A stretch of DNA of 64,000 nt. Source: Cloacibacterium normanense. Its GTDB lineage: Bacteria; Bacteroidota; Bacteroidia; Flavobacteriales; Weeksellaceae. The position numbers and the translations under genes were made by a program. Where the stretch lies: positions 1,426,001 through 1,490,000 of the forward strand of contig NZ_CP034157.1 in NCBI RefSeq assembly GCF_003860565.1, written 5' to 3'. Of the stretch, positions 22,430 to 44,900 are shown in pieces; position 1 is the stretch's first letter, and each line of letters begins with the position of its first letter. Under the pieces are notes generated by a model. That model ran no database searches and was not told the origin of the DNA. It worked only from the letters and a program-made list of their open reading frames with translations.

Positions 22430-22915
22430 TTTTATTTAAAAAAATATATCTTTTGAAACACAACCCATATATTTTTATATTAATTTTTAATATTTATACA
22501 TTTTAAATACACTATACCCCTATAATAACATCACAACAAAAAAATAATTTTCTTTATAAAAAGATTCTTGGCTTTGCTGCGCTTCGTTCAGAACGACAGG
22601 AGTCTATGAAACGGATTATTTTTATCACAAAGTTCACTAAGTATTGGTGAAATGATTTCGTTTTTAAGTTCTCTAAGGAACATCATAGATGTTCTATGAA
22701 GTTCACAGGTTTTTCTATTTACACTTTAAAAAAAATTTTTCTCTTCATAAAGATATTCTTCACTATGCTGCGCTTCGTTCAGAATAACAAGGTTCTGTTT
22801 TGTAATTATGAATTATAAATCTATGAGTACAGAATAATGTCTACATAAAAAAGCCACAGCACTTCCTGTAAAGAAAGCGTTGTGGCTTTGTGAATAGCAT
22901 CTAATAGAAAGAAGC
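22430..22915. other. Gene-free stretch with dispersed repeat copies
   Basis: No supported gene. It contains two half-copies of a repeat also found at 30600 and 49411 (22561-22600 and 22751-22790, core TGCTGCGCTTCGTTCAGAA), and between them (about 22615-22715) a diverged copy of the AAAGTTCAC...AACATCATAGATGTT sequence that is duplicated at 32841-33181. Confidence 0.6.
22849..22890 (-). terminator. Terminator of the small HTH-like gene
   Basis: An 11-bp stem (AAAGCCACAGC with GTTGTGGCTTT, one G-U pair) followed on the minus strand by T-run lies just downstream of the 66-residue gene. Confidence 0.6.
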
Positions 22916-23116: not shown

Positions 23117-24255
23117 TGTGTTCTACATGGCTATTAAGCTCTATTATTTACATAATGGAGCGGTTGATATTCCGTGATGACAGTTAAGAAAATAAAATAG
23201 GCTAAATGCTAAGAAGTAAGCAAGAAATAAAACGAAGCAGTAGAAAGAGGTTTATAGTTAGTGTTTTTCATAATTAAATTTTTCAGTTTTGTAAATGTCT
23301 TATGACATAAAAAGGGTTTAAGGATTATGTATCACCTGCTCTTTGTTGTACACATTATTTTACAACGGGTAGTATAAATTATTAAGTTTTATAAAAATAA
23401 ATTAGTGCATAATCTTTTCCGTGCATAGGTATTTTAGAATACTTGCACGATTTATTAAAAATCTACAATTTGTTTTATTTCCGTTACCTCAAAGAACTTA
23501 TACTACAGTACATTCTCTACTGTTCTTTCAAAGGTAAAAAGAAAAATCTAAAATATGGCGATGTATTTTTCCACAATTACATAGAAGTAGCATGAATAAA
23601 GGGTTTTCTAAAAATTAGGATAAAAGCTGATTGCTTTACAGCACTTTACAAATCTCTGTAAACCACGATAAACACTGGGCAAACCACGATAAAAGACCTC
23701 ACCATTAATTAATTAAACTACTGTTTAAACACACCGTTTAAACCCCTATGGATAAAGGATTACTCGAAAAATGAGCACTCCGTAAAATGATGCGAAAAAA
23801 CCCTATTTACAGCCTCTATTTTCATAGAAGAAGACTTCTTTTCTACTTATTCTTTCTCTAAAGTAAGGATGCCCCAATCAACAATTTTTAAGCTAAAGAA
23901 ATATCCCCCATAGTGACAAGATATTCTTATAAAACCACTGGTTCTATACCCCAATTTTTAGTCCTTGTAAAAATGACGAATCCATGCTCATTAAAAACTT
24001 CACCATATTCTATTTTTTTGACACGAGATTGACACGAGATTGACACGGGATTGACACGGGACTGACACGAGACTAGAATAAGGAAGAATTGAAGTGTTTT
24101 TTAAATAGCCTATTGTCTTGTTAGGTTATGAGACAAAACAGACTTAAACGAACATTTTGAAACAAAACGAACTATAAGTTTTTATCTGCACAAAATGCAC
24201 TTATTAGAATAAAAAGAATCAAAAAAAACAAAGACGAACCAAACGAAACATGGCA
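23117..24255. other. 1.1 kb gene-free region with short direct repeats
   Basis: No supported open frame. It holds two copies of AAACCACGATAAA 21 bases apart (23660-23672 and 23681-23693), two GTTTAAAC palindromes 13 bases apart (23723-23730 and 23736-23743), and the 11-bp repeat at 24020. The cluster of small repeats beside orphan genes suggests a decayed mobile element or a protein-binding region, but nothing shows which. Confidence 0.45.
24020..24074 (+). repeat. Five tandem 11-bp repeats
   Basis: Five head-to-tail copies of GACACGAGATT, with G/A and T/C changes at two positions. The 11-bp period is about one helical turn, so all copies face the same side of the DNA. The array lies about 180 bp ahead of a strong promoter. 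Confidence 0.85.
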
Positions 24256-25445: not shown

Positions 25446-25770
25446 TCTCAACTTCGGCAAAGTTTGGAACTTTTTTAACTTCTTCAACTTCGGCAAAGTT
25501 TAAAACTTTGCCGAAGTTTTCTTTGCCGAAGTTTTCTTTGCCGAAGTTCTCTTTGCCGAAGTTCTCTTTGCTGAAGTTCTCTTTGCTGAAATTCTCTTTG
25601 CCGAAGTTTTCTTTGCCGAAATTCTCTTTGCTGAAGTTCTCTTTGCCGAAGTTTTCTTTGCCGAAGTTCTCTTTGCCGAAGTTTTCTTTGCCGAAATTCT
25701 CTTTGCCGAAGTTCTCTTTGCTGAAGTTCTCTTTGCTGAAGTTCTCTTTGCTGAAGTTCTCTTTGCCGAA
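25446..25770. repeat. Palindrome plus 15-bp tandem array A (intergenic)
   Basis: After two half-copies of AACTTCGGCAAAGTTT comes a perfect 33-bp palindrome (25486-25518; 16-bp arms, one central base), then about 17 tandem 15-bp units of the form CTTTGCCGAAGTTCT. Read on the minus strand each unit encodes E-N-F-[G/S]-K. The array ends against a 3' remnant of the RAYT transposase gene. Confidence 0.9.
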
Positions 25771-25820
25771 GTTAAATTTCCACAATTCTCTGGTGACAAA
25801 ATTTAAAATTATCAATGTCT
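25769..25820 (-). pseudogene. 3' remnant of a second RAYT transposase copy
   Basis: About 50 bases match the end of the complete transposase gene at 25996-26047 almost exactly and encode the same last residues ([13 protein letters not shown], then TAA). Nothing else of the gene remains, so this is a fragment left by duplication or excision. Confidence 0.75.
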
Positions 25821-25844
25821 GCAAAGTTGGAACTCTTTTTTAAC

Positions 25845-25999
25845 TTCTTAAACTTCGGCAAAGTTTGGAACTTTTTTAACTTCTTCAACTTCGGCAAAGT
25901 TTAGAACTTTTCTTAACTTCTTCAACTTCGGCAAAGTTTAAAACTTTGCCGAAGTTCTCTTTGTTGAAGTTCTCTTTGCTGAAGTTCTCTTTGTTGAAA
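25845..25999. repeat. Half-palindromes, palindrome and short array B, abutting the transposase stop
   Basis: Two half-copies precede the full 33-bp palindrome at 25924-25956, followed by three 15-bp units that run directly into the stop codon of the RAYT gene. It has the same design as array A. Confidence 0.85.
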
Positions 26000-26602
26000 T
26001 TAAATTTCCACAATTCTCTGGTGACAAAATTTAAAATTATCAATGTTTTCAAAGTATGAAATTACTTCTTCTCTTTTTAATTCTGTTTTAGAGTTTGATA
26101 AAATAATTTTATAGGAAGAAAAATCATACTTTTCTAATTGCTCATTAATATCTAAAGAATTTTGATGAATATAAATTATACAGTTTCTAAGATAAACCTC
26201 ATCCGTTATTCTTATTCTTTTAAAAGGGGTCTCAAATAGACTACCATGTCTATTATAATATTTATTAAAACCTTGTGTATAACTACTCATTAATTTTGCA
26301 AATTGCTTGCTAACAATAGAATGTAACGCATGAATTCCCTCAGTTCTTATTTTAGTGTTTTTATTCTGAGAATCAAAAAAAGTTTTTAATTCTACTTCTG
26401 GTTTTATTCTTACCAACAAGTGAAAATGATTTTTCATAAGGCAATAAGCATAAATATCAGCAACTGGCAATAAAAATTCTTTTGCCTTTTTTAAAAAATA
26501 CAAATAATTATCTTTGTTTTTATAAACATCTTCACTGTTAATTCCTCTGTTATAGATGTGATAAAAAAATTCTGGCTCAAGATGGTCTCTTCTTATTTCC
26601 AT
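26000..26602 (-). CDS. REP-associated tyrosine transposase (RAYT, Y1/IS200-like family)
   Basis: Single-strand HUH transposase of 200 residues. The HUH motif is HFH at 59-61 (CLMKNHFHLLVRI), and the helix with the nucleophilic tyrosine lies around 108-118 (SYTQGFNKYYNRHG), followed by GSLFETPFKRIRI, typical of the REP-associated branch. Such proteins act on short palindromic repeats rather than classical insertion-sequence ends. Here the gene sits between palindrome arrays B and C, and its 3' end is duplicated beside array A. Which palindrome it recognises is not known. The gene appears intact. Confidence 0.87.
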   Translation of the reverse strand: MEIRRDHLEPEFFYHIYNRGINSEDVYKNKDNYLYFLKKAKEFLLPVADIYAYCLMKNHFHLLVRIKPEVELKTFFDSQNKNTKIRTEGIHALHSIVSKQFAKLMSSYTQGFNKYYNRHGSLFETPFKRIRITDEVYLRNCIIYIHQNSLDINEQLEKYDFSSYKIILSNSKTELKREEVISYFENIDNFKFCHQRIVEI

Positions 26603-26631
26603 TTTAGTTTTATGATTTTAGTTTTTTTTAA

Positions 26632-26884
26632 TCAACTTCGGCAAAGTTTGGAACTTTTTTTAACTTCTTCGACTTCGGCAAAGTTTGGAACTTTTTTTTA
26701 ACTTCTTCAACTTCGGCAAAGTTTTAAACTTTGCCGAAGTTCTCTTTCCCGAAGTTCTCTTTGCTGAAGTTCTCTTTGCCGAAGTTCTCTTTGCCGAAGT
26801 TCTCTTTGCCGAAGTTCTCTTTGCTGAAGTTCTCTTTCCCGAAGTTCTCTTTGCTGAAGTTTTCTTTACTAAAGCTATTTAAGT
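26632..26884. repeat. Half-palindromes, palindrome and array C
   Basis: Two half-copies lead into the 33-bp palindrome at 26709-26741, then about nine 15-bp units, some with CCC in place of GCC. The array ends just after the stop codon of the restriction-modification gene, whose last codons (ACC GAA GTT) themselves resemble a palindrome half. Confidence 0.85.
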
Positions 26885-27140
26885 TTTAAACTTCGGTGAA
26901 GCAAATATCATCTATTTTCTTCATCAGTTCATCTGTTTTGGTAAGGGCGTAGATGATTTTTTGGTAATGAAGAATGTCTTCATAAGAAAGTTCTCTTTCT
27001 TTACGGTCTTTTAGCCATTTTTGTGCAGGTTGATAGCCTCCGATGTAGAAATTCCATGCGGTTTCTGGTACGTTGTCGAAATACTGGGTTTCGTTGATGA
27101 AGACTTTTCCTGTGAGGTTTTCAACTTCTGGAGCGCTCTT

Positions 27141-27290
27141 AACTTCGGCAAAGTTTGAAACTTTGCCGAAGTTTTCTTTGCCGAAGTTCTCTTTGCTGAA
27201 GTTCTCTTTGCTGAAGTTCTCTTTGCCGAAGTTTTCTTTGCCGAAGTTTTCTTTGCCGAAGTTCTCTTTGCTGAAGTTTTCAGTTTTTAC
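27141..27290. repeat. Palindrome plus array D inside the restriction-modification gene
   Basis: The 33-bp palindrome (27141-27173) is followed by eight 15-bp units. The frame is kept, and on the minus strand it encodes eight NF[G/S]K units ending in KVSNFAEV, the last part coming from the palindrome. Confidence 0.9.
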
Positions 27291-27662
27291 AAAAGTAGGT
27301 TTTGCTACTACGTTATTTCCTGCAATAGGATATTTGGTTTGTAGGTCTTTATTGGCTATTTCTTCTAAAAGATGGAGTTTTCTAATTTCTGAACCTAGTT
27401 GTACTAAATCCCAAAAATTCTTTTGAATAGTGGACAAGTCACGACTTGTACCTACAGCATCTGGAAAAGGTACTCTAGGGAAATCTATTTTTAAAAATTC
27501 TTTATAGGTTTCTCTGTATTTTGGGGAGTGTAAAACGGCGTAGATGTAATCTAAAAGATTGAGTGGAGAAAAGTTTGTTTTTTTACTCTCAGCTTTTGAG
27601 GCGTTCTCAGCTTTTGAAGCGTTCTTAGCTTCAGGAGTGTTCTCAACTTCTGAAGTGTTCTC

Positions 27663-27792
27663 AACTTCGGCAAAGTTTAAAACTTTGCCGAAGTTCTCTT
27701 TGCCGAAGTTCTCTTTGCCGAAGTTCTCTTTCCCGAAGTTCTCTTTGCCGAAGTTCTCTTTCCCGAAGTTCTCTTTCCCGAAGTTCTCATCA
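27663..27792. repeat. Palindrome plus array E inside the restriction-modification gene
   Basis: The 33-bp palindrome (27663-27695) is followed by seven 15-bp units in frame, encoding seven NFGK units ending in KVLNFAEV on the minus strand. Confidence 0.9.
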
Positions 27793-28289
27793 TCTATGCA
27801 TTTCATTCCGAGTTTTGCTTCTATCTCTGCCAGAATTTTAGGATTGAAATTAGGGATTCTTTCTCGCTCATCAAATGCAGTCGGTTCTTGGTAAATGTAA
27901 AGTGGAAGAATAAAAGGTGACCTTTTCATTGCAGAAAAAACACTTTGGTCTGTAATAAATTTTGAAATAAATAAATCTGAATAAAAATCTGGTCCACCTT
28001 GTGCTGGTTTATTTGAAATCAAAGCAAGATTTTCTCCAATTAAAAAATGTTTCATTGTATCAAATCTTGGATAGCAATGGAATCCTTTAGATTTACCAGT
28101 ATAAAATGTCCATCTATCATCAAAAGGGCGATATGATATTTTCAAAAACTTGCCTTTATTTGGATAGTTATCATTTAAATCTTTTTTAGCAAAATTTACT
28201 TGCCAATCTCTTACATCTTTTCCTAAATTAAATCTTCTTCTTGCAGATTCATCATCTAAACTTAAAAATTCTTCAATTGTATTTTGAAC

Positions 28290-30461
28290 TTATTCTTTTT
28301 TAGAATGTATTGTAAAATTATCTCTAGCTGTTACAATTCCTACATTGTTTAAAGTAAAAAAATCAACAATAGAAAATCCTTTATTATATATGTTTTCTGC
28401 ATCAAAATCTTTATTTACCATAAAATACATAGGTGCTTTATTAGGTAATTCTTTATAATCAATAGTTTTAATAGAATTTTGATTTAAAAAATCATACTTA
28501 TCATTTCGCTTTCCATATAAATCAAAATGAAAAACTTTTCCTAATTCATTTTTAGCCTTTTTATTGGTTTTTACAAAAAGATTAATGGAAACACCTTGCA
28601 TAATATCAAATACATTTTGGTCTGCACTTCCATCTGGTGCAGTTTCTTTTTTCTTGCTGTTTCCATGCAAATCGATGGTGTAAATTTTATCAAAAGTTTT
28701 TAGCAAATTCCAACGCATACCTCTAAAAGTTGGGTTATCTAAAAAACCATGAGGATTGATAAAAGCAACGATTCCTTCTCCGTTTTTTTCTACTAAATAT
28801 TGAGCAAAACGAATGAATTTCACATAATCATCATTTATCCATTTCGGATTTCTTTCTTTCAATTTTTCTTTTCCGCCTGGTTCTTTTTTGTAATCTTCCA
28901 TCAAATCCATAATCCAATCACTTTTATTAGAACTTTCGCCAGAATACGGCGGATTTCCAATCACGCACATTACAGGGGTGTCTCGCTTAATTTGGTTTGC
29001 CAAAGTAGATTCATCAGAAAGCCAACTGGCGAAGAGTGTTCCTGTATCTTTGTGGTGTTCTTCCAGAGAATTGGTGAGAAAAATATTAAAACGCTGGTCT
29101 TGGTTGGTTTCGTAACCTGTTTCAGAAAGCAGCATATCTAGTTTAAGATGCGCCATAGAATAACTCGCCATCAAGAGCTCAAAACCATTAATTCTAGGAA
29201 TGAGGTCTTTTTCTACATATTGAGGCCAAATTCCCTCATTAATATTTTTAAAATTCTCTTCGTAGATGTGTTTTATGGTTTCGGCTAAAAAGGTTCCGGT
29301 TCCTGTTGCTGGGTCTAGAACTTGCACTCTGTGGAATTCTTTATTATCTTGTATGTATTTCTGTGTACGTTTATCAAAATTTTGTGTATCTACTTTTTTC
29401 TTAATTTTAGAAGTATCTGCCAAACCTTGAGACAATCCAAATTCAGATTTCAGCAAATCATCTACTGCACGTACAATAAATTGCACCACAGGTTGTGGAG
29501 TGTACCAAACGCCACGAGATTTACGGAGTTTTGGGTTGTATTTTCCCAAGAACGTTTCGTAGAAATGAATAACGGGGTCTTCTTGTCTGGTAGATTTACC
29601 GAAGTTTTTCATAATGTCCTTCACATCAGAAGCGAGGAAAATCTGCACCAATTCTTCCACAATCCATTTGAGACGTATATCTAAATCAAAACCTGCAATA
29701 TGCTGAAAAAGTTTCCTCAAAAAAGGATTAGATTTCGGGATAAGATTGGCGGCTTCTATCCTATCAAACGTAGGCAAAGTAGGGTCGTGATAACGTGCCA
29801 CGAAAAGTCCGTAAGCAATGGTTTGAGAATAGAGGTCTGCAAACAACTGATTGTCTATATCATGAATCAGCATATCTTTAAACGCTGTTCTTTGCTGTAC
29901 CAATTCTGTGTTTTTTTCCGCCAAATCGTCTTCGTCTAAAGCATTGTGAATGACATCTGCCATTAACAAAGCTTTATTAGCCATCATTTCTGCTAGTTTT
30001 TCAGAATTTTTGATGGTTTGCGAGACTTCTTGTCCAAAATCTTTGATGAGATGAATGAATGTTTCAAAGTTTTTCTCATGTGGAACGATTTCGTTCATCA
30101 AGATTTCGCCAAGAGCGATTTTGGTTTTCAGTTCGCCATTTTTATAGAATTCAAAATGTAGATAATCTGTAATAATTAGATTTTCGAGTGCGTTTCTATA
30201 ACGGTCAAACTGTGGTTTATTTTTCTTATGGTCTATTCCTAATTTTAAGTCTTTGGCTTCTATGTAACCAATGGGCACTTCTTTTTTGGAAACAATATAA
30301 TCTGGAGCGCCACATTTTTGGCGGGTTGGCTCATTAATTACGGCAAATTCTTTGCCTAGAATCTCCTGAAGCAGAATTTGTAAATCTCCACGATAAGAAT
30401 GTTCGGTTGCATTTCCTGCAAAATATAATTGAGAAAGTTTAGAAAGGTATTGATTAATCAT
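28290..30461 (-). pseudogene. Type IIG restriction-modification protein, nuclease and methylase part (gene interrupted)
   Basis: N-terminal 723 residues of an Eco57I-like single-chain enzyme that cuts and methylates DNA. A PD-(D/E)xK nuclease is visible (PD54, E68, K70 in GAPDYIV...GYIEAKD), then a helical region, then an N6-adenine methylase with motif I LDPATGTGTF (D383) and motif IV NPPYSG (N503). The chain ends at an in-frame TAA where the target-recognition domain should begin; the same frame goes on to 26886. The ATG at 30461 (MINQYLSKLSQLYF) suits the family better than an upstream start. If the stop is real, the protein lacks specificity and is probably inactive. Confidence 0.85.
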
Positions 30462-30524
30462 AGTTATTATTGAAGTGCATAAAATTAATGAAAAGTTTTT
30501 AAAAAATGTTATTAGAACAAGAAA

Positions 30525-30549
30525 AAGCACAGCGTAGATTGCTGTGCTT
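30525..30549 (-). terminator. Terminator-like hairpin without obvious owner
   Basis: A 9-bp stem (30525-30533 with 30541-30549) is followed by five T on the minus strand. No minus-strand gene lies directly upstream. Confidence 0.4.
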
Positions 30550-43206: not shown

Positions 43207-43280
43207 GGGTGCGTAGCTCAGCTGGATAGAGCATCTGCCTTCTAAGCAGACGGTCTCAGGTTCGAATCCTGACGCGCTCA
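43207..43280 (+). tRNA. tRNA-Arg (anticodon TCT)
   Basis: A 74-base cloverleaf. The acceptor stem GGGTGCG/CGCGCTC pairs fully with two G-U pairs, the anticodon stem is TCTGC/GCAGA, and the anticodon TCT is at 43241-43243. The 3' CCA is not encoded. Its 3' half is the source of the partial copies in the repeat units that follow. Confidence 0.95.
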
Positions 43281-43282
43281 CG

Positions 43283-43317
43283 AAAGAGAAATCAGAAATG
43301 GTTTCTCTTTTTTTTTG
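43283..43317 (+). terminator. Terminator after tRNA-Arg
   Basis: A 9-bp stem (AAAGAGAAA with TTTCTCTTT) followed by a T-run closes the tRNA cluster. The same hairpin recurs in every unit. Confidence 0.75.
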
Positions 43318-43337
43318 TTCTTAAATCAAAAAAATAA

Positions 43338-43750
<413 letters not shown>

Positions 43751-43830
43751 AATTCAAAATAAAAATTACGCTCACGAAAGAGAAATCAGAAATGGTTTCT
43801 CTTTTTTTTGTTCTTAAATCAAAAAAATAA

Positions 43831-44266
<436 letters not shown>

Positions 44267-44321
44267 CGAAAGAGAAATCAGAAATGGTTTCTCTTTTTTT
44301 TGTTCTTAAATCAAAAAATAA

Positions 44322-44702
<381 letters not shown>

Positions 44703-44822
44703 AGCATTCCGATTTTCTAAATCGGAACGGTCTCAATTCAAAATAAAAATTACGCTCACGAAAGAGAAATCAGAAATGCTTTCTCTTTTTTTTGTTATTA
44801 AATCAAAAAAATAATCGAAAAT

Positions 44823-44900
44823 TCAGCTTGATAGAGCATTCCGATTTTCTAAATCGGAACGGTCTCAATTCAAAATAAAAATTACGCACACAAAAGAGAA
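44823..44900 (+). pseudogene. Terminal tRNA-Arg fragment without GIY-YIG gene
   Basis: The fourth unit keeps the end of the gene (ATCGAAAATTCAGCTTGATAG) and the tRNA-like stem-loop but has lost the nuclease coding region, probably through deletion between repeats. Confidence 0.6.

Follow-up and report, generated by a model that had tools for sequence, protein, structure and literature searches.

A RAYT-type transposase gene, its likely cognate 33-bp palindromes and one-sided arrays of a palindrome arm at a Type ISP restriction-modification locus

The window, which is the whole 64-kb stretch of DNA analysed here, contains a cluster of five 33-bp palindromes with 15-bp tandem arrays in and around two genes on the minus strand. 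One of them, between palindromes 2 and 3, encodes a Y1/HUH transposase of RAYT-like type and was absent from the preliminary description of this DNA. The other is a Type ISP restriction-modification gene, whose frame in the window is broken near an A run at about 28275, parting its 5' and 3' parts. Palindromes 4 and 5 and their arrays are in frame with this gene and read (NFGKE)n-NFGKVxNFAEV, which the preliminary description had also missed. The features are as follows.

25486-25518, minus strand: palindrome 1 (33 bp, perfect; inverted-repeat search)
25519-25773, minus strand: 15-bp array, 17 units, outside both genes
25774-25830, minus strand: transposase 3'-end remnant (internal-deletion copy), with the junction at a shared ACTTTG; right boundary approximate
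25831-25923, minus strand: about 36-bp repeats, one palindrome arm each (TRF; boundaries approximate)
25924-25956, minus strand: palindrome 2 (33 bp, perfect; inverted-repeat search)
25957-26001, minus strand: 15-bp array, 3 units, overlapping the transposase stop codon
26000-26602, minus strand: Y1/HUH (RAYT-like) transposase gene, 200 aa (Pfam PF01797, alignment, AlphaFold, Foldseek)
26632-26708, minus strand: about 38-bp repeats with palindrome arms (TRF)
26709-26741, minus strand: palindrome 3 (33 bp, perfect; inverted-repeat search)
26742-26861, minus strand: 15-bp array, 8 units, close behind the 3' end of the Type ISP gene
26886-28145, minus strand: Type ISP gene, 3' part (specificity part; PF18135, 1.7e-60)
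27141-27173, minus strand: palindrome 4, in frame in the Type ISP gene, reads NFGKVSNFAEV
27174-27278, minus strand: 15-bp array, 7 units, in frame and translated within the Type ISP gene
27430-27455, minus strand: separate in-frame insert of about 10 aa with the look of a GTAG/GTGG-type REP palindrome
27587-27668, minus strand: 18-bp degenerate repeats, after palindrome 5 on the gene strand (TRF)
27663-27695, minus strand: palindrome 5, in frame in the Type ISP gene, 11 residues
27696-27785, minus strand: 15-bp array, 6 units, in frame, reads (NFGKE)6
28290-30530, minus strand: Type ISP gene, 5' part (N6-methyltransferase part; PF02384, 8.7e-15)

All five palindromes that had been claimed are present and perfect, with the layout AACTTCGGCAAAGTTT-N-AAACTTTGCCGAAGTT, i.e. 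two 16-bp arms and one central base. A search of the 64-kb window for perfect inverted repeats (arms of at least 12, loop of at most 5) found 10, six of which have 16-bp arms, and five of these six are palindromes 1-5. For 20 first-order Markov controls, it turned out that 19 contained no inverted repeat and one contained a single one, and none had 16-bp arms. The whole genome (2.76 Mb, one contig) holds 6 copies at up to 3 mismatches, 5 of them within the window cluster, so the palindrome is hardly a dispersed family in this genome. The sixth copy, outside the cluster, has two paired changes and no array. In 3 of 7 genomes of the genus, a solitary array-less palindrome is located just after a hydrolase gene, in an orthologous place.

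The arrays directly follow palindromes 1-5 on the plus strand with 17, 3, 8, 7 and 6 units respectively, and both TRF and the sequence itself bear out the earlier statement of 3 to 17 units on one side only. The 15-bp period runs without indels, and each unit consists of 13 arm bases plus a 2-base junction. On the plus strand the junction between units is CTCT for 33 of the 41 units and TTCT for the other 8, and C/T steps are common in such T-rich sequence. The same unit occurs in all arrays, indicating one origin and not five independent ones.

Read on the gene strand (minus), the module has the order [AACTTCGGCAAAGAG]n, palindrome, [GAAGAAGTTAAAAAAGTTCCAAACTTTGCCGAAGTT]m, with an 18-bp-type sequence in place of [GAAGAAGTTAAAAAAGTTCCAAACTTTGCCGAAGTT]m at palindromes 4 and 5. 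Thus copies of the left arm extend leftward with a 15-bp period at every palindrome, and copies of the right arm extend rightward with a period of about 36 bp at palindromes 1-3. These rightward copies are the half-palindromes that had been reported just before three of the palindromes, and five clear copies with TTTTTTAACTTCTTC-type spacers were recovered: one before palindrome 1 (25451), two before palindrome 2 (25852, 25888) and two before palindrome 3 (26635, 26672). One more, decayed, lies before palindrome 2. According to TRF they form a second array with a period of 36-38 bp.

The palindrome has a folding energy of -16 kcal/mol. Each arm is partly self-complementary, and the 15-mer alone folds at -1.7 kcal/mol and the arm of a relative at -3.7, but the full hairpin is far more stable. 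Array units fold no better than their shuffles (z +0.8); any slippage driven by a hairpin would therefore need to take place at the palindrome, and we ruled out the array as structured DNA on the same grounds. A CRISPR was ruled out by eye, as the units are contiguous and have no spacers. The arrays also give a match to Pfam Pentapeptide_2, which we judged to be a composition match to (NFGKE)n and not a real pentapeptide fold.

The transposase matches Pfam PF01797 (Y1_Tnp) with 23.5 bits, just above the cut-off of 23. With the NCBIfam RAYT model NF047646 (REP_Tyr_transpos) it scores 27.7 bits, below the cut-off of 80, and therefore we do not claim the NCBI equivalog name. The HUH motif NHFH (N58 H59 F60 H61) and Tyr144 are invariant in 37 aligned sequences. 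A sequence search of solved structures (PDB) gave nothing convincing (best E 0.18). For the AlphaFold model (mean pLDDT 92.8), the first Foldseek match is 4er8, a REP-associated transposase bound to a REP hairpin (E 9.7e-7, TM 0.58 by query; 0.58/0.69), and the next matches are the IS608 and ISDra2 transposases. Foldseek also gives Thg1 proteins at E about 1e-4 with an rmsd of about 12-13. With its HUH motif and catalytic tyrosine in a predicted Y1 fold, the protein belongs to the Y1/HUH transposase superfamily.

Of 149 genomes searched, with that of the window among them, 33 have homologues of this transposase. The matches are 23-71% identical, fragments included, except for one at 99% in a second species of the genus (genome G004; the window genome is G000). 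The window genome has two further transposase genes, 49% and 39% identical to that of the window. Both are flanked on both sides by their own palindrome, and no tandem array of more than 2.2 copies lies beside them. Besides, the window holds a remnant of the transposase, matching residues 175-200 at 65% (25775-25852). The remnants, one in G000 and two in G004, all join at the shared ACTTTG, indicating that whole modules were duplicated and internally deleted. In several relatives (L040, L041, L053), palindromes are also seen inside the transposase reading frame.

To see how regularly the gene and a palindrome occur together, we used two sets of homologous loci. Of the best 80 of 575 confirmed loci from named genomes, labelled mostly Bacteroidota with a few Chloroflexi or otherwise, 39 have a palindrome within 200 bp on each side, 59 have one on at least one side and 21 have none, compared with 0 of 80 (both) and 0 of 80 (either) in the shuffled control. 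In a second set of 30 loci (L037-L066; within 250 bp), the counts are 19 for both sides, 25 for either and 5 for none, against 0 of 60 in shuffles. The G004 locus, whose arrays move the palindromes beyond this range, was scored as a miss. The palindrome design is common, and the 16-1-16 (33-bp) layout recurs across lineages, while the arm sequence is lineage-specific, e.g. AACTTTGCCAAAGTT, AACCTTGTCAAGGTT, AAACCTCATAGGTTT and AGACCTGACAGGTCT. When the arm sequence of one relative was searched in 11 genomes at up to 3 mismatches, three genomes had 20, 23 and 15 copies, several with paired changes; three more had 1 to 5 copies and five had none. Thus the gene is flanked by cognate palindromes that are also found elsewhere, which is the arrangement of a REPtron. 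This flanking and the dispersal in relatives suggest that the 33-bp palindrome and the transposase form a cognate pair, a REP-like element with its RAYT-type enzyme. The palindromes are not canonical REPs, for only 1 of the 48 palindromes in loci L037-L066 has a GTAG or GTGG on its 5' side at a distance of up to 6 nt, with both strands considered. By eye, no conserved insertion target was obvious in the flanks of the transposase loci beside the palindromes.

Among described systems, the nearest kin is TnpAY1/RAYT subclass 2.6 (Bertels group 5), which is likewise found in Bacteroidota and comprises HUH-Y1 proteins of about 180-200 aa with hairpins at the flanks and copies elsewhere in the genome (PMC6006769). 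The transposase family here shares two traits of that subclass, namely Bacteroidetes and flanking atypical secondary structures. Its motifs are close to those given for the subclass, not exact: NHFH, FE and YIHQNS in the window protein versus NH[LIV]H, WQ and YIH[QN]NP (PMC6006769), and as the W motif differs (FE vs WQ) we name subclass 2.6 as nearest kin only. Tandem arm arrays are not part of its description in the main text, where the word "tandem" does not occur (PMC6006769). REPINs (BIMEs) and their tandem clusters are similar in that inverted REP-like arms form a hairpin and the clusters adjoin a transposase gene; in the account of PMC3116915, however, such clusters repeat whole REPINs with flanks, whereas the repeat in the window is one arm only, with a period of 15 bp and no GTAG tag. 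In-frame REPs translated in protein linkers have been described in coding genes (PMC3733652; subclass 2.4 in PMC6006769), and compared with those of PMC3733652 the window palindromes differ in carrying an expanding pentapeptide array. PARCELs are also coding tandem repeats with dyad symmetry, and their description as a 25-residue motif in membrane proteins sets them apart (PMC2996958).

Thus, of the earlier statement that no named element has such a design, one half does not hold, as palindrome plus transposase is a described RAYT/REP-type system. The other half stands: for direct 15-bp arrays of a single palindrome arm we found no description among openly licensed papers. The arm arrays are the new part, and the transposase-palindrome pair, in-frame REPs and whole-REPIN clusters are already known. 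The palindromic elements of Rickettsia are likewise kept in frame within genes, and they belong to another lineage and have another length than those of the window; we know of no transposase linked to them.

The arrays have a narrow distribution. A search for two joined units, with up to 3 mismatches allowed, was positive in 3 of 320 genomes of the family (own included), and all three are in the genus of the window. No exact match to the array pattern was found in the genome-contig and viral collections, for which the pattern was strict and from which near genomes are possibly absent. In the three species, all 12 palindromes with the window arm sequence (5 in G000, 6 in G004 and 1 in a third species, G002) carry their 15-bp array on one and the same side, with 0 of 12 on the other. 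The preliminary description had proposed to look for the palindrome and array in related genomes and to compare copy numbers. The first comparison found arrays at the orthologous locus in the two further species, and the second found unit numbers that differ between species: the orthologous arrays of linker 1 have 6 units in G000, 15 in G004 and 3 in G002, and those of linker 2 have 7 in G000 and 4 in G004. The longest array among the three species has 18 units. With 6 array-bearing palindromes at the same locus in G004 and 1 in G002, an assembly accident is unlikely. G002 lacks the stretch from the in-gene array to the outer palindrome, and with it the transposase and the end of the restriction-modification gene, which points to a deletion.

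Arm-sharing tandem repeats of at least 2.5 copies were flagged in 9 of 110 transposase loci. Among these, L126 has arms repeated next to a palindrome, which makes a small independent case, and in L062, L148, L151 and L188 whole palindromes with flank are repeated. L173 and L181 were not counted as arm arrays, since they look like chance 7-bp and 12-bp repeats. In L188 (1941-2925), 16.6 copies of a 59-bp unit with a whole palindrome lie beside the transposase homologue.

The Type ISP gene is intact, as a single frame of 1225 aa, in G004 only; the G002 copy is shortened, and that of the window has the frame break described above. Of the 12 homologous loci other than G000 and G004, nine could be aligned, with L095 (motif mismatch) and L096 and L097 (weak matches) left out. 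None of these nine has an array, eight of them covering linker 1 and all nine linker 2. Linker 1 contains a DUF559 domain in L094 and a shorter unrelated insert in L092. In L094 (1000-1500; G044) the DUF559 domain (5.6e-30) is in frame in linker 1 and has GC-rich palindromic flanks. Across 26886-30530, L079 and L068, the stretch just before linker 1 differs between the three species with both sides conserved, and it is probably the target-recognition part. Sequences related to the separate insert at 27430-27455 are located at C1:1942868 and C1:2425061.

Taken together, we think it likely that the palindrome serves the Y1 (RAYT-type) transposase of the window as its cognate REP-like element, that it has spread locally, and that one of its arms was duplicated and then changed in number through slippage or recombination. 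The enzyme most likely recognises the hairpin that the palindrome forms in single-stranded DNA and makes its nick next to that hairpin, as judged from related enzymes: in vitro, RAYTs cut single strands at C/T beside the REP hairpin and then rejoin them (PMC8266576). Its activity would have produced the local palindrome copies, two of which went into linkers of the neighbouring Type ISP gene, where they may survive because they keep the reading frame. In a common ancestor of the array-bearing loci, one arm with 2 junction bases would have been duplicated in direct orientation, and the 15-bp unit would then have grown and shrunk in whole units via slippage or recombination aided by the hairpin. 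Nicks by the transposase at the C/T steps bounding each unit possibly helped this change in unit number. The array-palindrome module would also have been duplicated along with full or internally deleted copies of the transposase. That the array was copied out from the palindrome arm, as first suggested, is supported by the composition of the unit and by the array-less palindrome that three genomes of the genus have in an orthologous place. Slippage, or a transposase-assisted duplication, of the arm was most likely seeded by the palindrome itself.

The strongest competitor, to which we give a little less than an even chance, is that of a plain minisatellite, in which the arrays change by replication slippage and RecA recombination only and the transposase placed the palindromes with no part in the arrays. 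It overlaps with our explanation, in which the enzyme may or may not have had a part in the arrays. In its favour, the arrays differ by whole units without indels, the G002 locus looks like direct-repeat recombination that removed about 2.2 kb by the spacing of G000, the transposase remnants join at microhomology, and larger tandem repeats of whole palindromes and flank are found beside other transposases (L151, L188). However, the strict one-sidedness and the restriction to the window element are left unexplained, and the two other transposase-palindrome pairs of the window genome lack such arrays.

An ordinary insertion sequence of IS200/IS605 type, with terminal hairpins, moving as a whole and leaving decayed copies, would fit the transposase fold, the palindromes on both sides and the internal-deletion copies. 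We regard it as unlikely, for palindromes are also found away from the transposase, the other two genes of the genome are far from near-identical copies of it, and apart from that of G004 the homologues are as divergent as given above. Still less probable is a selected coding repeat, in which (NFGKE)n would supply the restriction-modification enzyme with linkers of tunable length and the remaining arrays would have spilled over from the gene. Two of the arrays do lie in frame in the specificity part, both of them in linkers that are variable among homologues, and array length differs between species. Against this, the 17-unit array, which is the longest in the window, lies outside the gene, the same unit occurs inside and outside it, and the gene is intact only in G004.

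If the preferred reading of a cognate palindrome with a duplicated arm holds, the locus records how a palindrome element becomes a coding minisatellite within a gene for DNA defence. The spread of REPs has been called poorly understood (PMC8266576), and enzymes named in that study lie outside the Bacteroidota branch. The present locus offers a readable series at one element, i.e. palindromes with and without arrays, copies that bear deletions, and one locus whose orthologues in three species differ in unit number, and it could serve as a natural assay for the action of a transposase on its own hairpin. A bolder version seems rather improbable to us: that the RAYT-type transposase actively builds and trims direct arm arrays, cleaving single strands at the C/T step with which each unit ends and joining them again, which would give the Type ISP gene an enzyme-driven, frame-keeping length switch of 5 codons in its specificity region.

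Other repeats were also observed in the window. TRF reports 5 copies of an 11-bp unit, TTGACACGAGA, at 24018-24072 and 3.2 tandem copies of a 493-bp unit at 43275-44864, and the repeat at 22541-22821 is also found near the ligase gene in G004 and G002.
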